Assembly: GCA_900095095.1 (NCBI GenBank)
Contig: FMBT01000296.1
Coordinates: 1 to 64,000 of the forward strand
Length of the DNA: 64,000 bases
Reading direction: 5' to 3'
Source of the DNA: Fragilariopsis cylindrus CCMP1102
Lineage: Eukaryota > Bacillariophyta > Bacillariophyceae > Bacillariales > Bacillariaceae
Both the position numbers and the translations under genes were made by a program. Within the stretch, counting starts at the first letter, position 1; every line of letters begins with the position of its first letter. The notes under the pieces were generated by a model, which was not told the DNA's origin, made no database searches, and saw nothing but the letters and a program-made list of their open reading frames with translations. Shown in pieces: positions 19,291 through 50,103 of the stretch.

Positions 19291-22200
19291 ATGTACGTCC
19301 CCCCTTTTATGAGAAACCGTCGTGAAGTCGAAGACGATAGAAAGTCACCACGACAACATCATGATGGCAATGATGATGGCAAGGATGATATTGATGATGA
19401 TACCGATGATGATGATGACGATGATGGCGATGATGAGGATGATGAGGATGCCGATGAGGATCATCAACAACAAGAACATCATCGAATGCGCTCTTGCTTT
19501 GGAAGTAATTCGTTGGTACTTCTATCATTGTTATTAACCTCAGTAGTTGTTGGATCTGGTTGCTTATTTATCAGCATCCTTCCTGCTGGTAAACTCAGTC
19601 GTTATTCTCCCATTACAATTGGTACCACCAACACCAACACTAATAACAATCTTGATGATACTATCACCACCGGTATCAGCACCAACACCAACGGAGAAGA
19701 TTATCTGTCCATTGATGCAACCTCTACCTCTACGACCACAGATGGAATTGCTTTGTTTGTCAAGGATATTTATCGAGAGTTGTTCCAAAAATATACTACC
19801 ATGACAAAAGTAGTCGACGGAAGTGAACGTAAACGTGAAGATGAACTTGAACGTGAAGATGGAGACGAAGATGACGATGAAGATGAAGATGAAGATGACG
19901 ATGAAGATGAAGATGACGATGACGATGACGATGACGATGAAGATGAAGATGAAGATGAACGTAAGCTAAGAAGAAAAAAAAACAAAAATAAAAAGAAGAA
20001 AAACAAAAACAAGAACAAGAATAAGAACAAAACAAAAACAAATCGTGCAAGTGTTAATGGATTATCAGCTTCACCTAAGAGTTCATTATCAAAAAAGGAT
20101 TTGATGAATGATCTTGAAAGATTTACAAAAGAAATTTTAAGTATTGATGGTGAAATTCTATCCAACAATCCTTATAAAAAGTGTAAGGTGAATGTGATTA
20201 TACCAAGAACAACAAATTGTAATAATGTATATCCCAGTGATATGGACACTCCCGACGATATCAAGAAATGTTATGAATATAAAATTAGTATTAAGGGTAA
20301 AAATGCAGTTACGGCAATTGAATTAGTGGCAGAAGAAATAGCAGCTGACAATTATTCAACTGATTTTGGTTATCGTGTTATATTAGAACCAGAGATTGAA
20401 GCAGATACTACAATTATTGAAGTATTAGCTGCCCCAAATAAAAAAAAGAAAAAGAAATTGATAAACGATCTAACAAGAGTAACAAAAGAGCTTTTAGATA
20501 TTGACGGCGATATCAAGCCATCCAATGTCTACAAAGATTCTATTGTTAAGGTTATTATTGCAGAAAAAGTAGACTGTAGTAGTATATATATTGATGAGGA
20601 CATTCCTAAAAGAGTCAAAGTATGTTATGAATGTCGAATTAGTATTACTGGTAATAATGCAGATGATGCAACTCGTTTTGTTACAAAAAACATAGCAACG
20701 ATTGATCTTGATTTTCTTGTAATTATAAAACCATCATTTGTGGCTAAACCAGCAGCAAGCGTGAATGGACTAGCTGGTCCCCCCTCGAGTGCATCATCAA
20801 AGAGCGATCTGAAAAAGGCAATTACAAGAGTAACAAAAGGAATTTTAGGTTTGGGTGGTACTCTATCCAACAATTCAAACAAAGACTGTATTGTGAAAGT
20901 CAATATTCCAAAAACTGCAGACTGTAAAAAAATATATCCTGATGGAAAAGAAATTCCAGATCGTGTAAAAAAATGTTATGGCTATGAAATTACTGTTACA
21001 GATAACGGGGGTGGAACTTGTAATACAGAAGAAGCAATTAGAGTAATTACTGACGAAATCCAAAAAGATGAATACACAGATGATCTCAAATTTGATGTTA
21101 TAATTGACCCAGAAGAGTAAGTAGCAATTCAGCAAAATGGTGCATCATTTCAATATACAACATCTAACTAATTTGCTGTTCCATTCTATCATTTATGTTT
21201 ATTTAATTTTCATTTCTACAGAAGTAAAACTTTGTTTGATGTTGCCAATGATGGGTCTGATACCTTCTCATCTCTTGCAAAATATGTTTCTATAGCAGAT
21301 CTTGCTGAGAACCTCATTAATCGAGATGGAATCACTCTATTTGCCCCTACCAATGCTGCATTTGTCGACTTTAAAAACGGTTCACCTGATGGATTGGCCG
21401 ACAAGTTACAAACCGTCCAATGGCAAGATCACTTGGAAGATCTGCTGTTGTATCACACCCTTCCTACCATTGTTCCTTCCGAAACAATCATCACTGGTGG
21501 CCTCAAAAAATCCACAACTATTAATGATGAAATAATTAGGTACACTTTATCTGATACAACAATTGGTGATACTACTATTACTGATATATTTGTTAATACA
21601 GATGCACAAGTTATTGATGCTGATATAAATATTGAAAATGGTGTCATCCATGCTATTGACAATGTTCTTTTTCCACCTTGGGTTAGCAAGAGCATAATTG
21701 ATACTGCCAGTAGCAACCCCTATAAAAAAACATTGGAATCACTTGTTGAGTTACTAGGAGATTTTGATTTGAAAGATCAATTATCTCTACCTGGTGGCTA
21801 TACTGTGTTTGCACCAACAAACGAAGCTTTTCAACAAGATATTGCAAACGGCATTAATCTATCTCCTGATCAACTTTCATCTGTCCTCAACTACCATGTT
21901 GTAGAAGGTGTTTATCCTGAATCAGTCCTAGTAGATGGCTTTACTTTGACTACATTACAAGGAGATAAAATAAGATTTACAAGCACAACAGATGGCAGTG
22001 GAACAACCATGGTCAACGATGAAACTATCATTACACCCAACATTCTTGCCAACAATGGTATTGTTCATATTATTGATGGAGTTTTGATTCCAGATGGGTA
22101 AGTAACTGTGGAGCAATGTGTTGCAGAATATACTTTGTATTATTTTCCTTCCAATGTGTTCATCAATACAGCAGAGCACACCATGAACTAACTTTGTTGT

Positions 22201-25200
22201 TCCTTTCTGCTATTCTTCTTTTACTTTCTACAGAAGTAAAGATTTGTTTGATGTTACTGACATTGAAGAGGACCTATCATATTTTGAAAAATATGTTGAA
22301 TTGATACCAGATCTTGTTGACACACTCAATGATGACAAAGAAATCACTGTATTTGCTCCTACCAATGATGCATTTAAAAATCTTGGATCTGATGTTGCAC
22401 CAGTTGTTGCATTCAACTTGCTAACTGGTCCAAATACTACCACTACAATGTGGAAGGATCACTTGGAAGATCTGTTGAACTATCATGTCCTTCCTATTGT
22501 TGTGCCTTCCTCAAATATTACTGATCCCATTGATGGCCTCAAAAAATCCACAACTCTTAATAATGAAGAAATTATCTTTACTTTAGGAGAAGCAACAGAT
22601 GAAGAAGATACTGGTATATTTGTTAACACAGATGCAGAAGTTATTGATGCTGATATTGATATTATAAATGGTATTGTCCATGTTATTGACAATGTTCTTC
22701 TTCCACCTTGGGTTAACAAGACCATTTTGGATATTGTCTCTGATGAGAACCCACCAGCTGAGTTACCTGATGATGTAAATGTAGATCTAGTCAAGTTAGA
22801 TGAGACGTTGGAAGAAGTGTTCAAGGAAGCAGGACCAGATGAGTTTGATTTGCCCAATATTTTAGACTCACCTGGTGGCTATACTGTATTTGCACCAACA
22901 TCTGCAGCGTTTCTTAAAGATGCATCTAAGCTTGAGGACTTAAATATTGATCAACTTTCATCTGTTCTCAGCTACCATGTTGTAGAAGGTGTTTACCCTG
23001 AATCAGTCCTAGTAGATGGCTTTACTTTGACTACATTACAAGGAGAGAAGATTAGATTTACAAGCATTACAGATGGCAGTGGAACAACCATGGTCAATGA
23101 TGAAACTATCATTACACCCAACATTCTTGCCAACAATGGTATTGTTCATGTTATTGATGGAGTTTTGATTCCAGATGGGTAAGTAGCTTCTTTGTGCTGC
23201 AATCTAGCAATGTTGTGTACTTCTTTATGTATTATTTTCCTTCCAATGTGTTCATCAATACAGCAGCACACCATGAACTAACTTTGTTGTTCCCTTCTGC
23301 TATTCTTCTTTTACTTTCTACAGAAGTAAAGATTTGTTTGATGTTACTGCTGATGATGAGGACGATGAGGACCTATCATTATTTGATAAATATATTGTAA
23401 TATATCCAGATTTTGTTGACACACTCAATGATGACAAAGAAATCACTGTATTTGCTCCTACCAATGATGCATTTAAAAATCTTGGATCTGATGTTGCACC
23501 AGTTGTTGCATTCAACTTGCTAACTGGTCCAAATACTACCACTACAATGTGGAAGGATCACTTGGAAGATCTGTTGAACTATCACGTCCTTCCTATTGTT
23601 GTGCCTTCCTCAAATATTACTGATCCCATTGATGGCCTCAAGAAATCCACAACTCTTAATAATGAAGAAATTATCTTTACTTTAGGAGAAGCAACAAATG
23701 AAGAAGATACTGGTATATTTGTTAACACAGATGCAGAAGTTATTGATGCTGATATTGATATTATAAATGGTATTGTCCATGTTATTGACAATGTTCTTCT
23801 TCCACCTTGGGTTAACAAGACCATTTTGGATATTGTCTCTGATGAGAACCCACCAGCTGAGTTACCTGATGATGTAAATGTAGATCTAGTCAAGTTGAAT
23901 GAGACGTTGGAAGAAGTGTTCAAGGAAGCAGGACCAAATGAGTTTGATTTGCCCAATATTTTAGACTCACCTGGTGGCTATACTGTATTTGCACCAACAT
24001 CTGCAGCGTTTCTTGAAGATGCATCTAAGCTTAAGGACTTAAATATTGATCAACTTTCATCTGTTCTCAGCTACCATGTTGTAGAAGGTGTTTACCCTGA
24101 ATCAGTCCTAGTAGATGGCTTTACTTTGACTACATTACAAGGAGAGAAGATTAGATTTACAAGCATTACAGATGGCAGTGGAACAACCATGGTCAATGAT
24201 GAAACCATCATTACACCCAACATTCTTGCCAACAATGGTATTGTTCATGTTATTGATGGAGTTTTGATTCCAGATGGGTAAGTAGCTTATTTGTGCAGCA
24301 ATCTAGCAATGTTGTGTACTTCTTTATGTATTATTTTCCTTCCAATGTGTTCATTAATACAGCAGCACACCATGAACTAACTTTGTTGTTCCCTTCTGCT
24401 ATTCTTCTTTTACTTTCTACAGAAGTAAAGATTTGTTTGATGTTACTGCTGATGATGAGGACGATGAGGACCTATCATTATTTGATAAATATATTGTAAT
24501 ATATCCAGATTTTGTTGACACACTCAATGATGACAAAGAAATCACTGTATTTGCTCCTACCAATGATGCATTTAAAAATCTTGGATCTGATGTTGCACCA
24601 GTTGTTGCATTCAACTTGCTAACTGGTCCAAACATTACAACTACAATGTGGAAAGATCACTTGGAAGATCTGTTGAACTATCACGTCCTTCCTATTGTTG
24701 TGCCTTCCTCAAATATTACTGATGGCCTCAAGAAATCCACAACTCTTAATAATGAAGAAATTATCTTTACTTTAGGAGAAGCAACAAATGAAGAAGATAC
24801 TGGTATATTTGTTAACACAGATGCAGAAGTTATTGATGCTGATATTGATATTATAAATGGTATTGTCCATGTTATTGACAATGTTCTTCTTCCACCTTGG
24901 GTTAACAAGACCATTTTGGATATTGTCTCTGATGAGAACCCACCAGCTGAGTTACCTGATGATGTAAATGTAGATCTAGTCAAGTTGAATGAGACGTTGG
25001 AAGAAGTGTTCAAGGAAGCAGGACCAAATGAGTTTGATTTGCCCAATATTTTAGACTCACCTGGTGGCTATACTGTATTTGCACCAACATCTGCAGCGTT
25101 TCTTGAAGATGCATCTAAGCTTAAGGACTTAAATATTGATCAACTTTCATCTGTTCTCAGCTACCATGTTGTAGAAGGTGTTTACCCTGAATCAGTCCTA

Positions 25201-28200
25201 GTAGATGGCTTTACTTTGACTACATTACAAGGAGAGAAGATTAGATTTACAAGCATTACAGATGGCAGTGGAACAACCATGGTCAATGATGAAACCATCA
25301 TTACACCCAACATTCTTGCCAACAATGGTATTGTTCATGTTATTGATGGAGTTTTGATTCCAGATGGGTAAGTAGCTTATTTGTGCAGCAATCTAGCAAT
25401 GTTGTGTACTTCTTTATGTATTATTTTCCTTCCAATGTGTTCATCAATACAGCAGCACACCATGAACTAACTTTGTTGTTCCCTTCTGCTATTCTTCTTT
25501 TACTTTCTACAGAAGTAAAGATTTGTTTGATGTTACTGCTGATGATGAGGACGATGAGGACCTATCATTATTTGATAAATATATTGTAATATATCCAGAT
25601 TTTGTTGACACACTCAATGATGACAAAGAAATCACTGTATTTGCTCCTACCAATGATGCATTTAAAAATCTTGGATCTGATGTTGCACCAGTTGTTGCAT
25701 TCAACTTGCTAACTGGTCCAAACATTACAACTACAATGTGGAAAGATCACTTGGAAGATCTGTTGAACTATCACGTCCTTCCTATTGTTGTGCCTTCCTC
25801 AAATATTACTGATGGCCTCAAGAAATCCACAACTCTTAATAATGAAGAAATTATCTTTACTTTAGGAGAAGCAACAAATGAAGAAGATACTGGTATATTT
25901 GTTAACACAGATGCAGAAGTTATTGATGCTGATATTGATATTATAAATGGTATTGTCCATGTTATTGACAATGTTCTTCTTCCACCTTGGGTTAACAAGA
26001 CCATTTTGGATATTGTCTCTGATGAGAACCCACCAGCTGAGTTACCTGATGATGTAAATGTAGATCTAGTCAAGTTGAATGAGACGTTGGAAGAAGTGTT
26101 CAAGGAAGCAGGACCAAATGAGTTTGATTTGCCCAATATTTTAGACTCACCTGGTGGCTATACTGTATTTGCACCAACATCTGCAGCGTTTCTTGAAGAT
26201 GCATCTAAGCTTAAGGACTTAAATATTGATCAACTTTCATCTGTTCTCAGCTACCATGTTGTAGAAGGTGTTTACCCTGAATCAGTCCTAGTAGATGGCT
26301 TTACTTTGACTACATTACAAGGAGAGAAGATTAGATTTACAAGCATTACAGATGGCAGTGGAACAACCATGGTCAATGATGAAACCATCATTACACCCAA
26401 CATTCTTGCCAACAATGGTATTGTTCATGTTATTGATGGAGTTTTGATTCCAGATGGGTAAGTAGCTTATTTGTGCAGCAATCTAGCAATGTTGTGTACT
26501 TCTTTATGTATTATTTTCCTTCCAATGTGTTCATCAATACAGCAGCACACCATGAACTAACTTTGTTGTTCCCTTCTGCTATTCTTCTTTTACTTTCTAC
26601 AGAAGTAAAGATTTGTTTGATGTTACTGCTGATGATGAGGACGATGAGGACCTATCATTATTTGATAAATATATTGTAATATATCCAGATTTTGTTGACA
26701 CACTCAATGATGACAAAGAAATCACTGTATTTGCTCCTACCAATGATGCATTTAAAAATCTTGGATCTGATGTTGCACCAGTTGTTGCATTCAACTTGCT
26801 AACTGGTCCAAACATTACAACTACAATGTGGAAAGATCACTTGGAAGATCTGTTGAACTATCACGTCCTTCCTATTGTTGTGCCTTCCTCAAATATTACT
26901 GATGGCCTCAAGAAATCCACAACTCTTAATAATGAAGAAATTATCTTTACTTTAGGAGAAGCAACAAATGAAGAAGATACTGGTATATTTGTTAACACAG
27001 ATGCAGAAGTTATTGATGCTGATATTGATATTATAAATGGTATTGTCCATGTTATTGACAATGTTCTTCTTCCACCTTGGGTTAACAAGACCATTTTGGA
27101 TATTGTCTCTGATGAGAACCCACCAGCTGAGTTACCTGATGATGTAAATGTAGATCTAGTCAAGTTGAATGAGACGTTGGAAGAAGTGTTCAAGGAAGCA
27201 GGACCAAATGAGTTTGATTTGCCCAATATTTTAGACTCACCTGGTGGCTATACTGTATTTGCACCAACATCTGCAGCGTTTCTTGAAGATGCATCTAAGC
27301 TTAAGGACTTAAATATTGATCAACTTTCATCTGTTCTCAGCTACCATGTTGTAGAAGGTGTTTACCCTGAATCAGTCCTAGTAGATGGCTTTACTTTGAC
27401 TACATTACAAGGAGAGAAGATTAGATTTACAAGCATTACAGATGGCAGTGGAACAACCATGGTCAATGATGAAACCATCATTACACCCAACATTCTTGCC
27501 AACAATGGTATTGTTCATGTTATTGATGGAGTTTTGATTCCAGATGGGTAAGTAGCTTATTTGTGCAGCAATCTAGCAATGTTGTGTACTTCTTTATGTA
27601 TTATTTTCCTTCCAATGTGTTCATCAATACAGCAGCACACCATGAACTAACTTTGTTGTTCCCTTCTGCTATTCTTCTTTTACTTTCTACAGAAGTAAAG
27701 ATTTGTTTGATGTTACTGCTGATGATGAGGACGATGAGGACCTATCATTATTTGATAAATATATTGTAATATATCCAGATTTTGTTGACACACTCAATGA
27801 TGACAAAGAAATCACTGTATTTGCTCCTACCAATGATGCATTTAAAAATCTTGGATCTGATGTTGCACCAGTTGTTGCATTCAACTTGCTAACTGGTCCA
27901 AACATTACAACTACAATGTGGAAAGATCACTTGGAAGATCTGTTGAACTATCACGTCCTTCCTATTGTTGTGCCTTCCTCAAATATTACTGATCCCATTG
28001 ATGGCCTCAAAAAATCCACAACTCTTAATAATGAAGAAATTATCTTTACTTTAGGAGAAGCAACAAATGAAGAAGATACTGGTATATTTGTTAACACAGA
28101 TGCAGAAGTTATTGATGCTGATATTGATATTATAAATGGTATTGTCCATGTTATTGACAATGTTCTTCTTCCACCTTGGGTTAACAAGACCATTTTGGAT

Positions 28201-30961
28201 ATTGTCTCTGATGAGAACCCACCAGCTGAGTTACCTGATGATGTAAATGTAGATCTAGTCAAGTTGAATGAGACGTTGGAAGAAGTGTTCAAGGAAGCAG
28301 GACCAAATGAGTTTGATTTGCCCAATATTTTAGACTCACCTGGTGGCTATACTGTATTTGCACCAACATCTGCAGCGTTTCTTGAAGATGCATCTAAGCT
28401 TAAGGACTTAAATATTGATCAACTTTCATCTGTTCTCAGCTACCATGTTGTAGAAGGTGTTTACCCTGAATCAGTCCTAGTAGATGGCTTTACTTTGACT
28501 ACATTACAAGGAGAGAAGATTAGATTCACAAGCATTACAGATGGCAGTGGAACAACCATGGTCAATGATGAAACCATCATTACACCCAACATTCTTGCCA
28601 ACAATGGTATTGTTCATGTTATTGATGGAGTTTTGATTCCAGATGGGTAAGTAGCTTATTTGTGCAGCAATCTAGCAATGTTGTGTACTTCTTCATGTAC
28701 TTTTTGTTCTGATTCCCGTGGTTCAAGTCCATTGAGCACCTGCACAACATACATGAATTAATCTTTCCTTTTCCCTTACTTTATATGTTTGATTTTTGTT
28801 TACTTTCAGTCTACCGAGCTTGCATCCAAGTGCACTACCGAGTGTCGTTCCGAGTACTTTTCCCACCTCCGTTCCTACCCTTGACCCGAGCGGCGTACCA
28901 AGTTCAGTTCCTAGTCCCCAACCTAGTGTTGATCCGAGTGGTGCCCCGAGTTCTGTCCCTAGTTTGGAGGCCAGTACTAGTCCAAGTTCCATTCCAAGTT
29001 CCATTCCGAGTTCCATTCCAAGTGGAGAGCCAAGTAATCTTCCCAGCCTGGAGTCGAGCGGCGTACCAAGTGTAGTTCCAAGTGTTGCTCCCAGTTCTGA
29101 TCCAAGCGGTCTTCCAAGTGTAGGTCCTAGTTCTGAACCGAGTGCTATCCCCAGTTCTGTTCCAAGCCTTGACCCAAGCGCAGGTCCTAGTCTTTCACCG
29201 AGTAGCTTACCCAGTTTGGAACCAAGGTCATCGCCGAGTGCTGCACCCAGTTCCATCCCAAGTCTCGTTCCGAGCGCTGCCCCTATCATATCCTCCAGTT
29301 CGGTTCCAAGTTTGGATCCAAGCGGTATTCCAAGTGTAGGTCCTAGTTCTGAACCGAGTGCTATCCCAAGTTCTGTTCCAAGCCTTGACCCAAGCGCAGG
29401 TCCTAGCCTTGACCCAAGTGTAGGTCCTAGTCTTTCACCGAGTAGCTTACCCAGTTTGGAACCAAGTTCATCGCCGAGTGCTGCACCCAGTTCCATTCCA
29501 AGTCTCGATCCGAGCGCTGCCCCTATCATATCCTCCAGTTCGCTTCCTAGTTTGGATCCAAGCGGTCTTCCAAGTGTAGGTCCTAGTTCTGAACCGAGTG
29601 CTATCCCCAGTTCTATTCCAAGCCTTGACCCAAGCGCAGGTCCTAGTCTTTCACCGAGTAGCTTACCCAGTTTGGAACCAAGTTCATCGCCGAGTGCTGC
29701 ACTCGGTCTTTCGTGTGGATACGCATGTGAATTCTGCGATTTTGAAGCTGTGCGACCCCTAGTCGTAACCGTTACTGCTGTTCCGACCGCACCAAATGCA
29801 TGCTCAATTGCATTAGATACAGCAACCACAACTGGAACAGCAGGAGATACAACAGCATGCTCAAACACGATCAATCCGGGATCAACGTCAACGTCGACCA
29901 CAACGTCAACCACAGGTACGGCGGCATCAAGCTCAAATGGGACCATGGTAGGAACTGCAACATCAACAGGACTTACATTAGCGACATCGTGCGCAGTAGC
30001 TACTGGGTTGGGGACAGGGTCAATTAGTGCTACAACAGATGCGACTGCAACATCTACCGCAACTGCATCTGCATTAAATCCAGATTCAATTTCATTAGCT
30101 TCCGCGTTCTCGCCTAAGGGAAAAAAGGCAGCAGCAACGACAACGGCAACAGGTTTAAAATCAGCAACTGCAACTGCTATTTCGTCAGCAACAGCGACCT
30201 CAACAGCGACCACATCTAATAAACCAAACGAGTCATCGATCTCCATATCGACTGCAATTGGAACAGAAAAGGTGGAATCAACATCGACTGCAACTTCAGA
30301 AACAATAGCAGAAGCTACTTCGATATCTGAGTCAAAGAATTTAGAACTACCAGCCCTCGCTATAACAGCCGCAACTTCGACGGCAAATGGGGTAATATCA
30401 GCAACTGCAATTTCAGACACAAACGCAGAATCAACTGGATCAGCAGCAGCAACAGCAACCACAACAAGAACTGGTGGGAATACGGCTGCTTTAGCGACCA
30501 CTGATGCTACAGCGACCGCGTCAGGATCCTTAGTTACTGCCGCAACATCTACCGTAACTATATCGACTTCCGCATTCCTCGGTGGTCGTTCTATAGCAAC
30601 TGCAACATCGTTGGCAAATGAATCATCGTCATCAACTGGAATAGCAACAGCAACAGTAACAGCACCATTTGCAGTAGCAAGAGCAACAGCAACAGCAACA
30701 GCATCAGCAACACCAACCGTATTCGCAACCGCAAAGGCAACTGCAACTACAACTGGAACAAATGGAGGGTGTGCAATAGCGACCGCCACAGTGACTGCAA
30801 CGGATACTGCTGAGGCTTGCGCAACTGCAGTCGTAAACTTGAAGGAAAATACAATCTGTACATCGGTAGCTGAACCAATTGTAGTAAATTGTAGATATAA
30901 TGAAGAAAATGATGGCGATTGCGACGACTATATTGATGCTCATTGTGTGAAAATGTCATAA
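19291..30961 (+). CDS. Giant membrane-anchored fasciclin (FAS1) adhesin, 9 exons
   Basis: Predicted exons: 19291-21116, 21222-22097, 22234-23178, 23324-24277, 24423-25367, 25513-26457, 26603-27547, 27693-28646 and 28810-30961. All introns are GT-AG (GTAAGT donors, TTTCTACAG-type acceptors) in phase 2, and the joined frame is 3,513 aa. Residues 1-70 are an acidic cytosolic tail. A signal anchor (LVLLSLLLTSVVVGSGC) follows at about 75-93, then acidic and lysine runs, then three related domains of about 110 aa (about 253, 388 and 502 onward). Exons 2-8 each encode two FAS1 domains with the H1 motif TVFAPTNxAF, a YHV motif and the H2 motif NGIVHVIDxVLxP, giving 14 in total. Exon 9 adds PSxxPS repeats, a cysteine-bearing join, a Thr/Ala/Ser-rich region of about 370 aa and a Cys-rich C-terminus. 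FAS1 proteins mediate cell adhesion, so an extracellular adhesin or matrix role is inferred. An in-frame stop lies upstream of this ATG. Confidence 0.88.
20047..21116 (+). other. Three related ~110-aa domains in FAS1 exon 1
   Basis: Three copies start near 20085, 20450 and 20805. Each begins with a [DK]LxxxxxRxTKxxLxxxG helix segment, then KVxI, a DC/NC pair with a IY/VY strand, then a [KV]xCYxYxIxI strand. They end with a helix and a FxVIIxP strand. The alternation of strands and helices and two conserved cysteines suggest a small alpha/beta fold. I do not recognise it. It sits between the membrane anchor and the FAS1 array, so it would be the membrane-proximal part of the ectodomain. Confidence 0.6.
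22234..28646 (+). repeat. Tandem array of FAS1 exon-intron units, about 1,090 bp
   Basis: Exon starts at 23324, 24423, 25513, 26603 and 27693 are spaced 1,099, 1,090, 1,090 and 1,090 bp. Exons and the 145-bp introns are nearly identical in the last five units. The unit at 22234 is more diverged and the one at 21222 most diverged. Units at 22234, 23324 and 27693 carry a 9-bp insertion encoding DPI that is absent from the three middle units. All exons are multiples of three in symmetric phase 2-2, so loss or gain of a unit keeps the frame. Confidence 0.93.
28811..29710 (+). repeat. PSxxPS-coding minisatellite
   Basis: The exon encodes a near-continuous PSxxPSxxP tract of about 300 residues, built on a 12-nt period. 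Higher-order copies are visible: AGTGTAGGTCCTAGTTCTGA recurs at 29117, 29333 and 29573, spaced 216 and 240 bp. The middle copy has one extra 24-bp unit (LDPSVGPS). Such tracts in stramenopile surface proteins are thought to be glycosylated stalks. Confidence 0.9.
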
Positions 30962-33595
30962 CTATTATCACACTCACTTGAAGAAAAAAGAAAAAAATGG
31001 TAAAATACATATGTATATATATAATTGATTCTATATTTTGGTTAGAAAGAGAAATCAATTAAAATTTAAATGAAGAACAACAATTTAAATTATATATAGC
31101 AAAAATTATAAGGTAAATATTATTACAGTATGATTTAATATAGTAAAGAGAAAATATTATTATTAAGACTGAGTATACTGTACTATGGAACGTATCGTAT
31201 TCATTGGTAGAGAGTCGTGCTAGCTCCTGTTGTCCAGTCGTTCCTATCTTATTCAAGTCGTATTGTTTAGTCTAGTCTAGTCTAGTCTAGTCTAGTTTAG
31301 TTTAGTTTAGTTTAGTTCAGTTCAGTTCAGTTCAGTTCAGTTTAGTTTAGTTTAGTTCAGTATAGGTTGCGATGCATATGCATGCATGGTGCATATGCTG
31401 GTGACGTTGTGATAAGCTTCCGTCCAGCATGATATAATAATGCAATTATTTCGTTTCGTGCACCAAAAAGAGTATAGTACTTGAAGTATATGTATCCGAA
31501 TCGAATGAATCGATCGTCACTCAGTATATCGGTCACTGTGTATTCTACTTTAGTTGATGGAAATAAGTAATTTTTTGATCTTGATTGCCGTCGTTGCCGT
31601 TGCATGATCGATGTCAATGATGTTTGTTTTCGCTACAATGCGTTTTCTCTTATTTTGACAAGTGCATAAGTACTATCTTATATTCATTTTCCTTCATTGA
31701 TAACACACCCATAACGCCTCGTCGCATTATATACTACACCCACCCACACAATCGGAGAAAAACAATAGTCAATAATAAATTAATCTGCGTTACAGTACTA
31801 CCTACTATTATAGTAGTAGAGCTGCGATAAGCAATCCTTTACTTTTACAATATATTTTTATTAGGTAGAAATATGACATGTAATAAGTCGTACTGTACAG
31901 TAAAACAAGAATCCTTGTTTTCTCTCTCTCTTCTTACTTTTCTCTACTAAACCGAATAGCAGGTGAAGCAGCAATAAAGAGAGTCAATAATTGGAAAGAA
32001 AGTCTTGTGTTTCATAAGAAAAACAAGGAGTGAAGACTATTACATTGCAGTAACGTCAGCTTGACTCGTGGGCAACGCTGGACAATTTGCCTAGTGTATT
32101 GATATTTTGAATATTTTCACAGTGTATTTACTAGTAGTAAAAATTTAAAATATTTTCAGATTTTCACTGTGTATTTACTACGTAGGTATTAACTTGTACA
32201 GTATCCCATGCCATAAAACACGAACGATGGTTATGATACAGCCTAAAATGAAAAGGGGATCAAAAGGAGAGAATCCTGTTTCGTCGCAGCAACAACAACA
32301 ACAACAACAACAACAGAAGCAGAAGCAGAAGCAATTGAATTTCTACCTGAATTGGAATGAATTAGAATATTCCAAGTACAGTATCCCATGCCATGAAACA
32401 CGAACGATGCATGGTTACAGCCTAAAATGAAAAGTGACCGAAAAGGAGAACCATGTTTCGTCGTCGTCGCAGCAACAAACAACAACAACAACAACAATAG
32501 AAGCAGAAGCAGAAGCAGAAGCAGAAGCAGACGAAGAAGAAACAATAATTATTGTGAAGAAGGATTATAGACCTTTTGTAAAAAAAAGGTCCTATTATGG
32601 GAAAGGATAATATTCTTGAATGTGTCGTGTTATATAATCATATATAAACTAATACAGTCGGATTAGAAGCTCAGCACCATCAGTCGGATGTTGGTGTGTC
32701 GGTGGATGGTATGTCCGTGCTTTATTGCTAGTAAAGCAAATACTGTAGAGATGAATTTAATTTGATCGATACGATACGATACGATACGATACGATGATTG
32801 TAAGTAAAAGGGTGATCTTTATTAGATGAGACAGGTGTGTACTGTACCAATAAAGGATGATGTCTGGCATATCGGATTAAGTTTATGGGCAAAAAATATC
32901 AAAGGCAACTGAACTGCTCAGATGCGGTGGAACTCAAAAATGAATAATTAGTTTGGAATTGCATGCTGTTTTTTTAAAATCGACATTTACATTTAATTTA
33001 ATCCAATTGAAACAATGTAACGTGACACGACGACTAACTTATGATTTTCGATAACAGTTTACTACCTAAAAAGAATCAGAGTAAGATTTCGCTTAAGAAT
33101 CAGATTAGAACGAAACAAAATATTTAAAAAACACTTGCAATGGTCATGGAAAAAAAAAGAAGAAGATGAACTATTTAGACATGTATGTAATGTAATAATG
33201 GGTATTTACTTTATTTTGTTTTGTTTTGGTTTTGTTTTGTTTTGTTTTGTTTTGATTTGTTTTGATTTTTTTTTTTTGTATTTTTTTTGTTTTGTTTTAT
33301 AGTGCCTTTTTTATTTTTTTATTATACTGTACCCATACTATGATTTCGTTCATTCGTTCGTTCATTCATTCATTCATTTCAAAGGTTGATTCGATTCGAT
33401 TCAACTTCGTCTTTACATATTATACTATTTTCATATTCATATTCACATTCATTATTCACATTCATCATTATCAACGTACAGTATTAGATATGTACGTACT
33501 GTACGTCGACGTCTACGTTCGTCCATTCATCGGATACTATACAACCTAGTACTGTATTTCCTCTCATGTACTGATTATTTATTATCATTATATTA
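30962..33595. other. Gene-poor region with microsatellites
   Basis: Holds a TAGTC/TAGTT/CAGTT pentamer array (about 31265-31358), (GATAC)n (about 32767-32795), (TTTTG)n (about 33214-33262), (TTCA)n near 33345-33380 and the duplication at 32196-32545. Frames are short and repeat-derived. Confidence 0.5.
32196..32545. repeat. Tandem duplication, 180-bp unit with (CAA)n core
   Basis: GTACAGTATCCCATGCCAT begins at 32196 and 32376. Each copy continues with AACACGAACGATG, ACAGCCTAAAATGAAAAG, a GTTTCGTCG box, a (CAA)n run and a (GAAGCA)n run. The Gln-rich frame in the first copy is repeat-driven. Confidence 0.8.
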
Positions 33596-34876
33596 TTAGA
33601 TGATAACATTATCAGCATTATTATCAACATCATCAACACTCATTTTTTCTGGTAGTACGAATGATGATGTTGATAGTAGGGCTCTTTTTTTACTTGTACT
33701 TGTACTTGTACTTGTGGCTCTTCTTCTTGCAGGCATCATAGTTGTTGTTGGTAGTGGAGCAGGAGTAGGTGGTAGTGGAGCAGGAGTAGGTGGATTAGTA
33801 GGTGGATTAGTAGGTAGATTAGTAGGAGTAGGTGGGTTAGTAGTTGGACTAGTAGGAGTAGGTTGATTAGTAGGAGTAGGAGTAGGAATAATGGTAGGAG
33901 TAGGTGGTGGAGTAGGAATAATGGTAGGAGTCTTTGTTGGACTTTTCGTTGGACTTTTCGATGGTTTACGTGTTGGTTTACGTGTTGGTGATCTTGATGG
34001 TCTACGCGTTGGTGATCTTGTTGGTGATCTTGTTGGGGATCTTGTTGGTGATCTTGTTGGTGATCTTGTTGGATTTTGCGTGTTACTAGACGAAGTTACT
34101 GTTTCATCACATGGTAAACGAACTAATCCTGCTACTGCATCAAATGTAATCTCTGTTGTATTTTCTTGACAGATCGGATCAAGACATAATTGTTTTACTG
34201 CTGTTGTTTCTATAGTAGTCTCAGTGTTAGTACTGGTAGTATCTGGTGCTTGTAGTAATAATCCATTATATGCTTGAATGAAATCATTTTCAGACGGACC
34301 TTCGCAGACACATGTCTTATCTAATGTGAATGCAGCAACAGATGCAGCTGTTGCACCACCGAACAGCATTGGAACACTTGGTGTACACGTTACTGAGAGA
34401 GCATTAGATCGGACTTGACTACCAATTAGAAATTGATTCCCTGTTACATTTGAGGCAAGAACAAATGAAATACCAAGATCTTTATACCCATTATCATTAT
34501 TACAATCACCAATTACACTATTATATGCTGACTGAAAATCCGATTCTAATTTCAGCAACAATGGTATACTACTAAAACTTGACAGTGCTAAGTTTGAGGG
34601 ACTATCTTCATACGCAATAGCAGTATAAACAACAGAGGTGTATGATGATGCTTTATCCCCATATTCAATACATTGATCTTTAACTTGCAATTCACGATGA
34701 TCACGGCCAGTGCCACTGCCGCGACCAGTGCTTTGACTGCTACGGAGATTACCACTACGAGGGTCGCCACTGTTAATGCCACTACTGTCGAGCGAAGACA
34801 ACGATGATGCAACTACATCAGCCGTAGCGAAAAGGAGGAGAGAAGTGGTGGTGAGAAAAGAAATAACATGCATCAT
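33596..34876 (-). CDS. Secreted protein with PTxxPT-rich C-terminus
   Basis: 426 aa, intronless. Residues 1-24 are a signal peptide (MMHVISFLTTTSLLLFATA). A Ser/Gly-rich propeptide-like stretch ends at HRELQ (about 60-64). A domain of about 220 residues follows with spaced cysteines (DQCIEYG, GDCNNDNG, VTCTPSVP, KTCVCEG, LCLDPICQENTTE) and N-glycosylation sequons (NVT, NTT). From about 275 the chain is low complexity: SPTRSPTR repeats, then lysine variants (PTRKPTRKP, SPTKSPTK), then TPTPT and NPPTP tracts. An acidic end (SVDDVDNNADNVII) finishes it. I do not recognise the folded domain. PT-repeat tails are common in diatom and oomycete secreted proteins. A GAGTT pentamer array lies just upstream of the start. 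Confidence 0.8.
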   Translation of the reverse strand: MMHVISFLTTTSLLLFATADVVASSLSSLDSSGINSGDPRSGNLRSSQSTGRGSGTGRDHRELQVKDQCIEYGDKASSYTSVVYTAIAYEDSPSNLALSSFSSIPLLLKLESDFQSAYNSVIGDCNNDNGYKDLGISFVLASNVTGNQFLIGSQVRSNALSVTCTPSVPMLFGGATAASVAAFTLDKTCVCEGPSENDFIQAYNGLLLQAPDTTSTNTETTIETTAVKQLCLDPICQENTTEITFDAVAGLVRLPCDETVTSSSNTQNPTRSPTRSPTRSPTRSPTRSPTRRPSRSPTRKPTRKPSKSPTKSPTKTPTIIPTPPPTPTIIPTPTPTNQPTPTSPTTNPPTPTNLPTNPPTNPPTPAPLPPTPAPLPTTTMMPARRRATSTSTSTSKKRALLSTSSFVLPEKMSVDDVDNNADNVII

Positions 34877-34891
34877 CGTGATTGATTCCTT

Positions 34892-34961
34892 GAGTTGAGT
34901 TGAGTTGAGTTGATTTGGTTTGAGTTGAGTCGAGTTGCGTTGCGTTGCGTTGCGTTGAGTT
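34892..34961. repeat. (GAGTT)n / (GCGTT)n pentamer array in a promoter
   Basis: Pentamers GAGTT, GATTT, GAGTC and GCGTT run without interruption immediately upstream of the start of the minus-strand PT-tail gene. They would fall in its 5' UTR or promoter. Confidence 0.8.
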
Positions 34962-35077
34962 GTGTGATTTGTTTTGAGTGAGTTGAGTGAGTGAGTTTAA
35001 AAGGTATTAATTTCAAGATTGAAAGAATAATTGTGAAGCTTTTGTGTACGATCTTTTGATTTATTTGTGAGTTGATG

Positions 35078-35480
35078 TTGTGAGCATATAGAGGACAAAA
35101 GTAAATCAACGAATATTAAATTGGTCACCTTCTGAGGTGTGTGAGCGAGTGGAAAAAGGCCCATGCATTTTTGTTTTGTCCACGACCTGATCGGCGTATT
35201 GTATATGTGGGGTGATGGATTCTCATATGATACACAGTATACCGAAGAGATGTGAGCATAGGGAACAAAAGTAAATCAAAGAACATTAAATTGGTCACCT
35301 TCTGAGGTGTGTGTAAGCGAGTGAAAAAGGCCCATGCATTTTTGTTTTGTCCAAGACCTGATCGGCGTATTGTTTGTGGGGGTGGATGTGAGCGCATAGA
35401 GAACAAAAGTAAATCAGAGAACATTTTTGTTTTGTCCACGACCTGATCGGCGTATTGAATGTGTGGATGGATTCTCATAT
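35078..35480. repeat. Tandem repeat, about 173-bp unit, 2.6 copies
   Basis: TGTGAGCATA/TGTGAGCGCATA begins copies at 35078, 35251 and 35387. Shared blocks are AAATTGGTCACCTTCTGAGG, GGCCCATGCATTTTTGTTTT and ACCTGATCGGCGTATTG. The third copy lacks the middle block. No convincing gene; a minus-strand frame through it is repeat translation. Confidence 0.85.
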
Positions 35481-37335
35481 AAGCCGATACACCGTAGAAT
35501 AGAATATAATATTATAAGACGCCGAACCACGGGTTTAGTACACTACTTTAGTATGCATAATATTTCCTTGCGTGACTCGGACGTAACGAAGTGACCAAAA
35601 CCTTCAATAAAGTAACGTTACATTTAGAACAACAGAACCGATAATGTACACTACTGTACAGCCAGTAGAGATAGTTTGATTGATTCGTGCATGTGAGTCA
35701 TGTCTTGAAAGAATTTCGGTTATAAATAAATGTACTCACAATCGTTAACCTTGAGCGGTTCGGCGACTTCCACAATTTTGATTCACACTTCTTGGCTTCT
35801 TCAATTTGCATGACACTCCAAGTTAAGAACATGATTATTATTTAATTTTTCTAGCCGCCGGGAATGAACGTAGTCATCAATTGCTTAGACTACACTCATA
35901 CCGGTAGAGAGAATATGACAATACGACACATACCTGAGCCAAAGTAGTTTTACGGACAAGCAAGGTTTCAGTCAAATGTGAAACGATTGAGTCGAGTTAT
36001 ACTCATCACGTTCTTCGACGGCGATGTTTGTCAAAGAGGACGGAAAAAGAAGATTCTATCGTGTTTTACATGTCCAATATGTTCAACAAGCATCACAGCA
36101 TGAGAGATTGGCAGGTGCATGGAATGAAAGATTCGTCATTACATTTTAAAGTCGGAGAAATAGCAAGAAGTAGGTCAGGCATCATTATCATTCCGATGTA
36201 CGTTATGTACAGGCTTTTTTGGAGTATGTGATACGATGTACAAGTAGAGATAACCCCCCCCGTACAAACATACATACATACATACACACATACATAGCTA
36301 ACACAAGTCCGTCTTGTGAAACTAATAACTAATAATGCCTGGTCCAGTGATTAGAGAGAAAACCTATTTGCTTTTCCCTAAAGTACGTGCGTGTATGTGC
36401 ATTCAATAAATTGGATGGAAAATATTATTCCATGAGGATGACAATGGGAATTCATTCGACCATACCTCAATTAATATATATATATATATCGGTTCACAAG
36501 GAAAAGTTTCGTTGTAATTTTGTCTGTGGGGGAAAATTATGTGAGCAAAAGGTGCATAATAACAGAGGAGGATGCCATTGTGAATCGAATCAAAAATTTA
36601 CAGCTAAGCCTCTATAACCAATAACAATAAGAGACTATAATCAATTATTCATTTAGCTCTTACTCTGTAATAGACTATAATCTCTTATTCGTTTCGCTCT
36701 TACTCTTTAATTCGATTGATTCTTATTTCTCCGCTTTTATGTACCTCTTGTGACGTTTCGGAATTCGACTGACTCCATATATATTCATTCACACCTTCAC
36801 AGCAAATAACCCCGACCAAACCAAATTAGACCGCACCTCTTTCTCCCTCTTCACAAGAAATATGTCTTCCGTTAGTTCGGCATCTCTCTTGTAAAAATCA
36901 GACCAGTACCAATTGAGGTTAGTTCGATTAGTTAGTTACATTCCCATTGTTATGTCACTTTTTGAAAATTATTATTTTCCATTTCAATTGTTACTGCATA
37001 TTGTTGGCTTCAAGTAGTAATTTCCCAAGAATTTTTAAGTAATTTCTCTTTGAGACGTGAAGGAAAAATAAAGGAAAAGGTAGCGCGTTGAAACATCTCT
37101 ATCGTTTTGCATAAGAAAAGTACAACGCGCGATTGGATATCGCTCTTCTAAGCAATACCAAGTTCTTTGCTCATGCTGCACTGTATATAGCGGCGTTCTT
37201 ATTCTAGCTACAGTATTGACGTAAAACAAGAATCGAATCATCCTACAATCTCAGAAAACAAAGAGAGAGAACCAAATCAAAATTTAACCAACATAGCAAA
37301 GAACAACGAAAGAATAAATCAGACACAATACTACC
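35481..37335. other. No gene recognised
   Basis: AT-rich sequence with a (CATA)n run (about 36268-36296) and a (TA)n run near 36475. Frames of 60-76 codons lack domain character. Confidence 0.35.
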
Positions 37336-37735
37336 ATGACCATGATAACTTTAAAATCACTAGTAGTAGCATTTACATGGCTTATTACAAGCATGAACTG
37401 CTGCGCACATGCATCTTTATGTTATAAGAAGAGTGAGTTGTAACTACTAGAAATCACCGTGGTTTATTAGGCGTTATTATAGCCACCGCAACAGCAACAG
37501 CATAAGCTGGCACTAGCGCTACTGCAGTCGCTTCATCATCGACTGCAGAAGCTTCGACTGATGGACAAGTGCCTTATTCTAGTAGACCTCATCAGTTAGA
37601 ACCTGACACAAAACAAAAGAGGACGATGAAAAAGAAACGAATATTACTATTGAGCTTTTACCATTTTCTATCCTTATCCACGGATCACTTGCTGACTAAC
37701 GAAACTGGCTTTCGAATGTAGCTAGAAGAATATCT
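37336..37735 (+). pseudogene. Remnant: signal-peptide exon plus decayed Thr/Ala-rich region
   Basis: 37336-37443 encodes a 35-aa signal-peptide-like peptide (LKSLVVAFTWLITSMNCCAH). A GTGAGT that could be a donor site lies at 37433. About 40 bp further on, one frame reads ATATATA, a TAA stop, then AGTSATAVASSSTAEAST and continues open to about 37733. The composition resembles the Thr/Ala-rich region of the FAS1 gene. I infer a degenerate relative of that gene, but similarity of low-complexity sequence is weak evidence. Confidence 0.3.
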
Positions 37736-38273
37736 TTTACTAGATAATTTTTCTACCTAAACTATCAGCAGTTTTGATCTAAGATCCGGGGGGCATCTCC
37801 GATATATTAGTCTACCCCCAGATAATGCAACTGTTATAACTAATAGCGAACGGCGGTCGCTTAGCTTCGACGCAGATTACAACAAGATCGAGTTACTTCA
37901 ACAAAAAAGGCTACTCTCTTTGACTATACGGGCAGTGTTCGTCCTCGGATAGATTTCAATATGATGTTGACCAAACTTATGATACTCAGTTGAATTAAAG
38001 GCATTGGAAGAGATAACAGAAAAGCTACAAAAGTTATCTGTTCGATTTTGGTGCACGCATGAAAACAGACGAAGATAAACGGTGACAAATTCAATTTACA
38101 ACGTCGAAATAAATAAAAAATCAGGTCTAAGATAAAAACGGTGACAAATTCAACTTCAACGTCGAGCAGAAGGTCGACCTACCCAATCATCTAATGAAAA
38201 TTTTAGCCGGTATGCATATCGCTGTGGATGTTGTCAAAGTGCAATACAATACAATTCAAGTCCATCTCTGCTC

Positions 38274-38750
38274 ATGATGGAAAAGATGACAAACACCGAA
38301 AATGGAAATGGATGCGATTCATTCGTCCTCTACGACCAGACGAAAGTTATGTTATGTGCAGATAATATTGAAGACGATAATACTGATAACGAAAAGGACG
38401 AAGAGGAAGATGAAAAACCAGCTCGGATCAAGATAAGGAAAAGGTCGAAGAGGAAGAAGAAAAACCAGCTCGGATTAAGATGACAACAAAACAGATAAAA
38501 AGGACGAGGACGAGGAAAAACATAGTGAAAATGATGGTATACCGACGAATCAATCGGTGGGAAGGAGGAGGAAAAAGAGGAAAACAATAAACCAAACGAT
38601 GAGCAGGAAGGGCAAGAAGAAGAAGAAGAAGAAGGGCAAGTAGAAGAAAGTACCAAAAACAATGGACTAACTGAAAAGGAGGTGGAGGAAGAAGAACAAG
38701 ATAACAATGACTTCCGGTACTTTACAGTACACGACGTACATATTATATAA
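38274..38750 (+). pseudogene. Decayed acidic/lysine-rich gene
   Basis: An acidic and lysine-rich composition continues through three successive frames. 38274-38483 ends DEEEDEKPARIKIRKRSK plus a basic tail. The next reads DKKDEDEEKHSENDGIP (about 38490-38555). The last reads KEEEKEENNKPNDEQEG through EEEEEEGQVEEST to a stop at 38748-38750. One original frame broken by two frameshifts explains this best, although small introns are possible. The antisense Ser-rich frame is a shadow. Function unknown. Confidence 0.35.
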
Positions 38751-39590
38751 GCCTGTTTTTAATTCGAAGGCCAAAAAATACCTGTAATGATGTAAAATAA
38801 ATAATGTACTAGTATGTATGCATTTTTTATGTTGTTGTCGTACTGCGTTGCATGTCATTGATTATTCCTGTATGCATTTTTTATCTGCTTCATGTTTTTT
38901 TATTCAGATACGGTAATGGAGACTCTAGAGTTGCGCGCTTCATGTTGTCGAAAAAACACATGCATTCATGCATTCACTTTTACTACCAACATCTGTCAGA
39001 CCATACCATACCATACCATACCATAATATCCTACTGTACTGTACTGTACTTCCTCTCCTGTACTGCAGTATCATATCAATCCATCGTTTTTCTCGTACGT
39101 CTCCTGGCTTTCGAACATCGTTCATCGATCGTTGTTCGTCGTCAATCAGCATCATCAATCATCATCGTCGTCGTCAGATATAATAGTATCTTAGACGACC
39201 TCTGAATCAATAACAAAATTAGTAACAAACAACTTAGATAAAGCAGTAGGATATATTATCATTATCATTCTGCCTGAATAGTGAGTCTGTCTCCTTCCAT
39301 ATCTATTGAATATATTATTATTATATAATAATAATAATTATTATTTATTATTCCCATCTCCATTATAATATCAATTCAATCCAACGGCACAACAAAATAC
39401 TTTTCCTATATACAGAATAACAATTAATGAGAAAGAGAGACAAATAGAAGCAGGTAAATAGTACTTTCGCTCTCACTAGATAGCTACTCGCTCTCTTTCA
39501 CAAACACCAACGCGCTCGAATTATCAAGATACCACCAACTTTTGCTACGAACAAGCGGCACGTCTTATACTTATACCAGCATCATCGACA
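38751..39590. other. Intergenic, upstream of the LRR gene
   Basis: (CCATA)n at about 39002-39025, (CTGTA)n near 39035-39050 and AT-rich sequence. Presumably contains the promoter of the LRR gene, but no motif could be assigned. Confidence 0.35.
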
Positions 39591-42500
39591 ATGAGTCTTC
39601 CTCAAGATAAAAACGACTACATTGATGGTAGCATTATTGGAATTAGTGGAATTAATGATGATGATGATGAAAACAACAATAATGGAGGGAGCAACAAGAA
39701 CATTGCAGAACAACCAGTACTATACACTAACGAAGATGATGGTAGTAGTAGTACTTTCAGTAGCAAGCCGTATCCTGCAGATACCTACTCGCTTTTATCT
39801 CTTCATGGTCCTGTTGGGAATCCTGGTTTTTTTCATATGGTTTAATGGTGTACCTGTTCCAGATGACATTCCTTGTACTGATGGTACTAAGTGTAATCCA
39901 TCCAAACTGGTCCAGTAATGGTGACGGGGATAATCCTGATGGAGATAGTAGAGGATCTCTTTTAGAAAGACTTGCAGAATTTGTTCCATCAAATGTTAGT
40001 CCACTAGTTAGAGCTACCCAAATTACAGCTACATTGTCTTATATTATTTTTGCAGATTCAACTGTGCTTGATGTTGTTACAGCTGTTGAATTGTTTCCAC
40101 GCTTTAATCAGGCAACAAGTGACGATAAGCTTGGGTGCATGGTATTTGCTTCTATTCTACGTTTAAGTCAGGGTATTCTTGCAATAACTGTAACACTCTT
40201 ACTAATTGTCACTTCATCCACTACAATTGAAATCATCTTAAATTTCACAGCAATTAATTTTATTTCAACTCTTGATAATGTTGGATTTAAAATTATTAAG
40301 TGGGGAAAGTATGGACCAAAGTTTGAAGAGGAAGCAAAACGCATTGAAATGCTACCACTTCCCAGATGCATTTACAGGAAATACAAGCATGTTCGATATT
40401 TGTGTACTATCATCCCCATTGGTGTGATATTGTTTTCAATGATATGCTCTATGATTATTCTTCAAGAAAGTAATAATCATTGGGTCACCAAGATATTTAG
40501 GGTTCAATTTCAAGACAAGGAACAAGGCCTACAGGTATACAATGGCTGCTACAATGAAACTGCAATTGATAGGAAGGAAGGATCTAGAAGAAAGCTATAT
40601 GAAGGTTCTGGAAACAATGCTGAAAGTGCTAAATTTATCTATTGTATTGCTGATCGTCGCTGGATTCTCTTCAAGGGTAATATCACTAATGCTTGTGATT
40701 TAGGCGAAAATAATAATACATTAGCACGTTCTTCAAAAACAGATACATTTGATGTTGCAACGATGTTTGGTCAAACATGGTATTCTTCTAGTAACACACC
40801 TCTTGATGTGTACTTTACTGAAGAAAATGGTGATGATATTGAATTAAATAATAATACTTGTTCATCGTTTATAAATGATGGCAATTGCGATTCATTTTTT
40901 AATAAGTTTGATTTTCAATATGATGGTGGAGATTGTTGTGCTGCTACTTGTTCTAGACCCAATTGTGGAATTGGGTCACTCAAGAATACCTTTAATACAA
41001 CTAATGCTACTGGAAATGGTTTTCCGAATTGTTCACATCCTGATATGGTCCCTATAACTATTCGTCTTGACAGTATTGAACCTCAATTCCAAGATACTGA
41101 TTATTTTATTCCAGATGGGTTTAATAAAAGTTCAACTATTAATGACATTCTTAGGAATAGTGGTGGTGATGATGACTCCTTTAGAATAGAAATTTTAAGA
41201 AAGGATCCAATAAAGCCATTACTATTCATTGACTGTGATGGAAGTAATGTTTTGAACATTTATGTTGATAAGTCCATGGAAAATCAAACAGAAACAATTA
41301 TGGTTAGTGATGGTGCTGATTGTACCATGACTATTAGAAATGATGGTAGGGATGATGATTCAATTTGGTATCCAGACTATACAATTTTACATGGAGACAC
41401 ACAATCTATTGAAAGCAATTCAATTGTGGTTGCTCAGTCTTCTAGTGCTGAAGAAAGTACTCATGTCTTTAGAAGGATACCAGAATGTTATTTTGATAAG
41501 CTTTCTGATTATATTGATAGATCAACTGTTTATACTGGTATTGATTATGACCCAACAGCAAAAGCAATTAATTGGTCAATGAATGATGGATCAGAAAATT
41601 CAGTGTGTGAGGATCCTTTTTTTCTTGAAAAATATGCATTAGCTGTAATTAACTTTGCTGCTCCCTCCAACTCTACTGATTCCACATTGATTAGTACTAC
41701 AAGGCAATGTATTTGGCCCGGCATCATATGTGATGAAGGAACTGTAATAAGTTTAGATATGAGTAAGTGATCAATGCGTTATTCTGTTATTCAATTTCAA
41801 TATCTTGTACATTATATTCTCATAAAGATCTCTTCTTTCTGATAATAAATGTCTGATACAGGCAATATAAGTCTTACTGGAAGCATTCCCAGTGTGATAG
41901 GATTGTTGACCTCACTTGAAAAACTTTTCTTTGGTAAGCAATTGAATTGAGTATTTTTCTGCTTCCATTTACTGTTATTTTTATTGATTTCTCACAATGC
42001 CATTTTTATACTTCTAACATTTTACTACTAAATGCATTTAGCTTCAAATGCTCTTAACGGTACCATTCCTAGTGAGATTGGACTGATGACCTCACTTGAA
42101 GATCTTGCTTTGGGTAAGCAATTGAATTGAGTATTTTGCTGCTTTCATTTACTATTACATCTGTTGTTTCCTCACAATGCCATTTTGATACTACTCACAT
42201 TTAATCACCAAATGCATTAGATGACAATGCTCTTACTGGTACCATTGCCAGTGAGATTGGAGTGATGACCTCACTTATCAATCTTTATTTGTGTAAGTAA
42301 TTATATTGAGTATTGTTTTGCTTCCGTTTACTGTTATTTCCATTGTTTTCTAACCATGCCATTTTGATACTACTCACATTTAATCACCAAATGCATTAGA
42401 TTCAAATGATCTTACTGGTACCATTCCCAGTGAGATTGGACTGATGACCTCACTTACAAGTATTTATTTGTGTAAGTAATTATATTGAGTATTGTTTTGC

Positions 42501-43369
42501 TTCCATTTACTGTTATATCTATTGTTTTCTAACCATGCCATTTTGATACTACTCACATTTAATCACCAAATGCATTAGATGACAATGATCTTACTGGTAC
42601 CATTCCCAGTGAGATTGGACTGATGACCTCACTTGAAATCATTTATTTGGGTAGGTAATTGAATTGAGTATTTTTCTGCTTCTATTTACTGTTATATCTA
42701 TTGTTTTCTAACCATGCCATTTTGATACTACTCACATGTAATCACCAAATGCATTAGATTCAAATGATCTCACTGGTTCCATTCCCAGTGAGATTGGACT
42801 GATGACCTCACTTGAAATCATTTATTTGGGTAAGTAATTGAATTGAGTATTTTTCTGCTTCTATTTACTGTTATATCTGTTGTTTTCTCACAATGCCATT
42901 TTGAAACTTCTTATATTTACCACCAAATGCATTAGGTGGCAATGCTCTTACTGGTTCAATTCCAAGTGAGATTGGACTGATGACCTCACTTGAAATCATT
43001 TATTTGGGTAAGTATTTGAATTGAGTATTTTTCTGCTTCTTTTTACTGTTATATCTGTTGTTTTCTCACAATGCCATTTTGAAACTTCTTATATTTACCA
43101 CCAAATGCATTAGGTGGCAATGCTCTTACTGGTACCATTCCCAGTGAGATTGGACTGCTGACCTCACTTGAATATCTTTATTTGAGTAAGTAATTGAATT
43201 GAGTATTTTTCTGCTTCCATTTACTGTTTTATCTGTTGTTTCCTCACAATGCCATTTTGATACTTCTTACATTTTATCACCAAATGCAATAGTTGAAAAT
43301 GAGCTAACTGGTTCAATTCCAAGTGAGATTGGACTGTTGACCTCACTGTTGAGCTACGATATTTGTTGA
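39591..43369 (+). CDS. Multi-pass membrane LRR protein with LNR module; one frameshift
   Basis: The ATG at 39591 opens an acidic, Asn-rich N-terminus (MSLPQDKNDYIDGS) ending SLHGPVGNPGFF. At a run of seven T (39827-39833) the frame must shift by one base to enter the long frame that continues to 41762. That part has membrane segments (LFQMTFLVLMVLSVI; TQITATLSYIIF; ILAITVTLLLIV; TIIPIGVILFSMICSMIIL). An extracellular stretch follows with an LNR/Notch-like module at about 40857-40945 (CSSF..DGNCD..DGGDCC) and many N-sequons. Nine LRR exons come next: 41862-41933, 42042-42113, 42221-42292, 42400-42471, 42579-42650, 42758-42829, 42936-43007, 43114-43185, and one from 43293. Each full exon is 72 nt in phase 1, one 24-aa repeat of consensus LTGTIPSEIGLMTSL. 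The last exon meets an in-frame TGA at 43367. Diatoms carry many such membrane LRR proteins; ligand unknown. Confidence 0.8.
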
Positions 43370-43380: not shown

Positions 43381-43497
43381 GTAAGCTTTGGTATTAACTA
43401 TTGTCTAAAGTTGTTATGAGCATCTATCTTAGCGTCTAACTGAGTGTCTGTTTCCATTACAACTGGCTAACTCACTCCGTACGCGTAACGAATATAG

Positions 43498-50085: not shown

Positions 50086-50103
50086 GGTTTAAGAGTCTGA
50101 ATT

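Follow-up and report, generated by a model that had tools for sequence, protein, structure and literature searches.

Does the run of tandem FAS1 modules in this stretch belong to one gene, how did the run grow, and where did its introns go? The stretch analysed here (the window) covers the initial 64 kb of contig C108 (735 kb), in a genome of 67.9 Mb distributed over 818 contigs. The genome contains 27 matches to silicon transporters (best E 1.1e-226), which mark it as a diatom genome. Taken as a whole, our analysis makes it probable that the window holds a spliced surface-protein gene in which a FAS1 exon was shuffled and multiplied, and that an intron of the resulting array was copied to a WDR59-like gene.

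A predicted single spliced gene and its product

Nine exons and eight introns between positions 19291 and 30961 of the forward strand (Table 1), joined in silico, yield one frame of 3,513 aa with no internal stops, as the first-pass annotation had proposed. In this joined frame all eight introns have GT...AG ends and lie in phase 2, and the length of each of exons 2-8 is divisible by three. The start at 19291 is backed by two paralogues, on contigs C439 and C770, whose acidic tails open alike. The annotation had relied on the consistency of splice sites and phases. This consistency is real at all eight introns, but the eight junctions are not independent proofs, since introns 3-7 were copied from one another and no difference at all separates units 5-7 (100% identity). 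More independent support is provided by intron 1, by intron 2 and the array type of intron, by intron 8, and by the C439 paralogue with its identical phase-2 layout. From these features we infer a single spliced gene, presumably read as one transcript. Opposite exon 9 there is an antisense open frame of 734 aa (window 28723-30927, reverse strand), probably a by-product of repeat codons.

Table 1. Features of the FAS1 gene (positions in the window)
Feature	Position	Strand	Remarks
Acidic N-terminal tail	19291..19485	+	65 aa, 37% Asp; beginning alike in C439 and C770 paralogues
Hydrophobic signal-anchor segment	19486..19599	+	by hydropathy; sole hydrophobic segment, aa 68-103
Three related N-terminal domains	20080..21114 (20080-20436, 20437-20796, 20797-21114)	+	about 106-120 aa each
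Exon 1	19291..21116	+	acidic tail, signal anchor, low-complexity linker, three N-terminal domains; by joined frame and paralogues
Intron 1	21117..21221	+	105 nt, phase 2
Exon 2	21222..22097	+	FAS1 pair; the most diverged unit
Intron 2	22098..22233	+	136 nt, phase 2
Exon 3	22234..23178	+	FAS1 pair
Intron 3	23179..23323	+	145 nt; T at position 20, as in the copy in the WDR59-like gene
Exon 4	23324..24277	+	FAS1 pair
Intron 4	24278..24422	+	145 nt
Exon 5	24423..25367	+	FAS1 pair
Intron 5	25368..25512	+	145 nt; query that retrieved the C441 copy
Exon 6	25513..26457	+	FAS1 pair; same sequence as exons 5 and 7
Intron 6	26458..26602	+	145 nt
Exon 7	26603..27547	+	FAS1 pair
Intron 7	27548..27692	+	145 nt
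Exon 8	27693..28646	+	FAS1 pair
Intron 8	28647..28809	+	163 nt; initial 59 nt resemble the array intron (95%), remainder aligns poorly
Exon 9	28810..30961	+	PSxxPS stalk (28811-29704), then the Thr/Ala-rich tip (29705-30958; 12 Cys) and the stop

A whole-genome Pfam search placed 14 FAS1 matches in the gene, with every exon from 2 to 8 contributing a pair. Each of the 14 exceeds the curated cut-off of the family (Pfam PF02469, 22 bits), which agrees with the number of domains claimed earlier. The other parts that had been described (acidic tail, signal anchor, three N-terminal domains, PSxxPS stalk and Thr/Ala tip) could each be located in the joined product. The N-terminal domains are about 106-120 aa long, and two of them are 43% and 47% identical to the third; no Pfam family scored over its cut-off in them. 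Exon 9 encodes a Ser/Pro stalk of 298 aa and then a Thr/Ala-rich, Cys-containing tip of 418 aa.

A charged tail followed by a lone hydrophobic segment near the N-terminus, a layout also present in the paralogues, is the arrangement of a Type II signal anchor, and we predict this topology for the product. Most likely the product is a signal-anchored surface protein, a long adhesive tether; an adhesin role is plausible given its membership in the FAS1 family. FAS1 proteins were found in the adhesive trails of two diatoms, according to the available text of PMC10939406.

Estimates of dN/dS range from 0.64 to 0.92 in four exon pairs containing exon 2 or 3; in comparison with the C439 paralogue they are 0.85 for exon 2 and 0.75 for exon 6. 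The exon pairs 4-6 and 8-6 have merely 4 and 2 differences, too few for dN/dS. These values argue against strong constraint on the FAS1-array protein.

Stabilins, with seven FAS1 domains, and TGFBI and periostin, with four, are likewise extracellular proteins with tandem FAS1 domains (as far as the available part of PMC6032426 lists them). The window protein differs from them in its 14 FAS1 domains, twice the largest number given in that source, and in its N-terminal domains, PSxxPS stalk and Thr/Ala tip. In addition, its anchor is N-terminal, whereas stabilins are described there as membrane proteins of type 1, whose cytosolic tail is at the C-terminus. Judged by its sequence, the gene is real and unusually long, and of a kind that is already known.

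Several other elements were noted in the window. Three small look-alike open frames, each coding for a single hydrophobic segment and an acidic tail, lie on both strands (52031-52585, 54338-55078 and 58115-58828). The segment 39676-43350 has several 3.7-kb relatives at 85-86% identity on contigs C635, C47 and C70, as well as shorter relatives in other places. At 43363-43485 lies a dispersed element, about 120 nt long, with 20 matches at 82-91% identity in the rest of the genome; we considered it as a possible introner and rejected it, since the ends of the similarity lack GT and AG.

Paralogues and growth of the array

The repeat search gave a unit spacing of 1,090 or 1,099 nt. The units 5, 6 and 7 are 100% identical in both exons and introns, and the pairwise identity of introns 3-7 is 98-100%. 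Compared with exon 5, there are 2 substitutions and 9 gap columns in exon 8, 4 and 9 in exon 4, 19 and 28 in exon 3, and 118 and 163 in exon 2.

The C439 paralogue consists, from N to C terminus, of the tail, the anchor, a Cys-rich segment, one FAS1-pair exon, a second Cys-rich segment and a long PSxxPS stalk; we take the Cys-rich segments to be ShK-like. Its single FAS1-pair exon is flanked by phase-2 introns on both sides. The C770 paralogue includes the N-terminal domains (66% and 73% identity, in two pieces), the stalk and the tip (57%), with frame breaks. No FAS1 was seen in the frames read there, and none of the 150 scored matches of 222 FAS1 candidates lies in this gene. Matches to the N-terminal domains at 36-49% identity were found in further genes on C108, C807, C587, C680, C337, C131 and C129. 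A separate FAS1 array was observed at C551:8210-11998, in a single frame of 1,359 aa with eight FAS1 matches and partly a 972-nt period.

Thus phase-2 introns flank the FAS1 module at either end, in the window gene as well as in C439, and C770 appears to be a FAS1-less relative. This combination is the mark of exon shuffling and suggests that the cassette was shuffled as an exon and expanded in tandem. In the simplest history compatible with these sequences, a phase-2/phase-2 FAS1-pair exon would have been placed in a C770-type gene (N-terminal domains, stalk and tip) and would then have multiplied in tandem, its intron included. Intron 8 keeps 59 nt of the array intron and then diverges, which is the pattern expected at the edge of such an insertion and expansion. 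The similarity between intron 1 of the window gene and the array intron has a score that was reached by none of 500 shuffles. The similarity between the array intron and introns of the FAS1 paralogues is weak: its score was reached by 25, 3 and 15 of 500 shuffles (C439i2, C439i1 and C778i, respectively).

Two alternatives concern the array itself. The nine exons could be separate FAS1 genes or pseudogene pieces, in keeping with the tandem, near-identical units and the weak constraint indicated by dN/dS. However, inspection of the frames by eye found no ATG near the start of any of exons 2-8, all nine exons join in one frame and the phase-2 layout recurs in C439, so we regard this explanation as highly improbable. 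A duplication in the assembly might have produced the three 100% identical 1,090-nt units 5-7, and the true number of FAS1 domains would then differ; the variation of adjacent units by substitutions and by 9-nt length steps makes this unlikely. The single spliced gene with a multiplied exon is therefore the reading that we follow below.

The array intron recurs in a WDR59-like gene

The 67.9-Mb genome was searched with the 1,090-nt unit and with the 145-nt intron alone; the latter gave eight matches at E <= 10, seven of which fall within the array. Among the matches of these searches, the eighth is the only full-length copy of the intron outside the array. It lies at C441:95327-95471 on the reverse strand and is identical to the query at 143 of 145 positions. 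The copy begins and ends precisely at splice sites, in phase 2, with the junction CAACATGG/GTAAGT...CTACAG/CGGACATT. The preceding exon matches 9dx0_D (E 1.9e-11) and the WDR59 chain 7uhy_D (E 2e-8). The 88 residues that span the junction match the same two entries at E 1.6e-17 and E 3.3e-17, respectively; in this comparison the top match, 9dx0_D, has the aligned letters of 7uhy_D under a different label. WDR24 entries match these residues as well (best E 1.4e-16). The continuation of the WDR59 alignment through the junction supports the splice ends of the intron. We found no flanking or target-site duplication at the insertion: the exon bases add up, with nothing duplicated.

The copy differs at two positions from intron 5 and at two from intron 3. 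It has a T in common with intron 3, where introns 2 and 4-8 have A. In a tree the copy falls among the array introns, grouped with introns 2-5 with support 77 and with intron 3 with support 60, the latter tie resting on one base. Since the copy is nested among the array introns, the array is the likely donor, and the direction of copying was likely from the array to the WDR59-like gene.

A second copy of the WDR59-like gene is located on C683. The two contigs are collinear, in inverted orientation, over about 21-23 kb, with the main pieces 87-96% identical; because of this collinearity they are probably two haplotypes of one region. Among the 150 FAS1 matches scored of 222 candidates in the whole genome, several occur as equal pairs on two contigs, hence some regions seem to be present in the assembly as both haplotypes. 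A second copy of window 33000-36000 was not found in the genome search.

The exons of the two WDR59-like copies are 97-100% identical per 200-nt window up to the intron, and third codon positions differ in 35 of 1,377 codons. The intron of the C683 copy is unlike the array intron. It has 174 nt, is in phase 1 and lies one base away from the C441 intron site, with the junction CAACACG/GTGCGT...CATAG/GCGGACATT. Removal of either intron leads to the same zinc-finger end, with one residue different between the copies. The C683 copy has a TAG 272 codons upstream of the intron, within a stretch resembling a small ordinary intron. The alignment of C441 and C683 (about 9 kb) contains nine low-identity blocks, among which the WDR59 intron was the sole one recognised by eye as GT...AG between matching exons.

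The C683-type intron is itself present elsewhere, on C72 (95% identity over 134 nt) and C175 (87% over 166 nt), at sites that look like two haplotypes of one gene, where by the sole open reading it is in phase 0. A pattern search with its first 35 nt, allowing at most three mismatches, returned the same three places. The C72 copy (C72:407137-407270) contains CCCGGGTTCGAAC, which resembles a tRNA B box.

As a background control, we used a 20-kb DNA query (window 36001-56000) at E <= 1e-8. Among the 39 of 283 candidates scored, with the self-match not listed, none of 76 matches was both at most 200 nt long and at least 95% identical.

How the intron may have moved

What the sequence itself shows is the open frame across the joined exons, the two paralogues, the copied intron and, in the second, collinear copy of the recipient gene, an intron of another kind. 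The intron is near-identical to those of the array, has exact splice-site ends, resides in an unrelated gene and is absent from the other copy of that gene; on this evidence, intron transposition appears to be the best reading. We propose that, after the growth of the array, a copy of one of its introns, with exactly the original ends, entered the WDR59-like gene. In its new place it would have replaced, or arisen parallel to, the likewise copied intron that the other gene copy carries one base away. One route would be reverse splicing into an mRNA, after which reverse transcription and recombination would return the sequence to the genome. Reverse splicing fits both the precise ends of the copy and its position beside an existing junction, as anticipated in a 2012 review that, in its available part, calls definitive mechanisms of intron gain elusive and considers that sites already holding introns may be where reverse splicing chiefly operates (PMC3443670).

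A transfer at the DNA level would instead bring a short tract of the array (the last exon bases plus the intron) into the WDR59-like gene by break repair that uses about one base of microhomology per end, and the resident intron would be replaced. The bases before the junction are CATGG in C441, CACGG in C683 and GATGG in the array exon. The exonic T of C441 is thus that of the donor exon, and with third-position changes being rare this favours a DNA tract with exon bases in it over plain reverse splicing. Moreover, if the 3' junction is read as donor ...TACA followed by recipient GCGGACATT, the one-base shift would be accounted for. Yet two breakpoints at splice sites would need chance or selection, and the C683-type intron shares just one G with its other location on either side. 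We consider a DNA-level transfer quite possible, though clearly short of an even chance, and between the two mechanisms the RNA route is slightly more likely. A true introner, i.e. a mobile intron family with many copies, would account for one site with two unrelated introns that both have copies elsewhere. However, the array type occurs in only one gene outside the array, and the C683 type in the WDR59-like gene and one other gene (on two contigs). Thus neither type reaches the at least four similar introns in unrelated genes at which families were kept in a 2022 introner survey (PMC9860276; the word "diatom" is absent from the available main text), a count in which strongly diverged members could be missed. 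The target-site duplication of DNA-transposon-type introners is also absent, and we think an introner very unlikely.

The transposition of an array intron has several partial analogues. Like the introner elements of Micromonas and the introner-like elements of fungi, it involves near-identical spliceosomal introns in unrelated genes, and parallel gains at occupied positions, as at the WDR59 site, are described for fungi in the available texts of PMC3879977 and PMC4457414. Those elements have tens to thousands of copies, whereas here the copies are few and the likely donor is an ordinary gene array. Low-copy near-identical introns are also known in Oikopleura, with four pairs among about 75,000 introns, for which reverse splicing was suggested (as told in the available part of PMC3879977). 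The Oikopleura pairs lie within the same gene; in our case the genes are unrelated and the second copy of the recipient has another intron. In Daphnia populations, as in our case, different alleles carry different introns at homologous sites; these parallel gains have been linked to double-strand breaks and to direct repeats inside the introns (PMC4202315, available text). Unlike in Daphnia, both introns here have identified copies elsewhere in the genome. Within the accessible parts of the literature searched, we found neither a description of this FAS1 gene or of the intron copy, nor an intron copied between genes from an identified donor to a site at which the second copy of the host gene has a copied intron as well.

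The window gene would be an example of a diatom surface protein lengthened by the copying of a phase-symmetric exon. It is the intron copy that deserves follow-up. The origin of spliceosomal introns is an old question, and here the likely donor, the recipient and the second copy of the recipient are all in one genome, which makes the route testable. We suggest tentatively, with a little less than even confidence, that in this diatom ordinary spliceosomal introns move singly between unrelated genes and land where splicing already occurs, with two unlike transposed introns, one per haplotype and one base apart, at the WDR59 site. If this is true, an array that releases five near-identical intron RNAs (introns 3-7) per pre-mRNA would have raised odds of a jump and may act as a source of introns.
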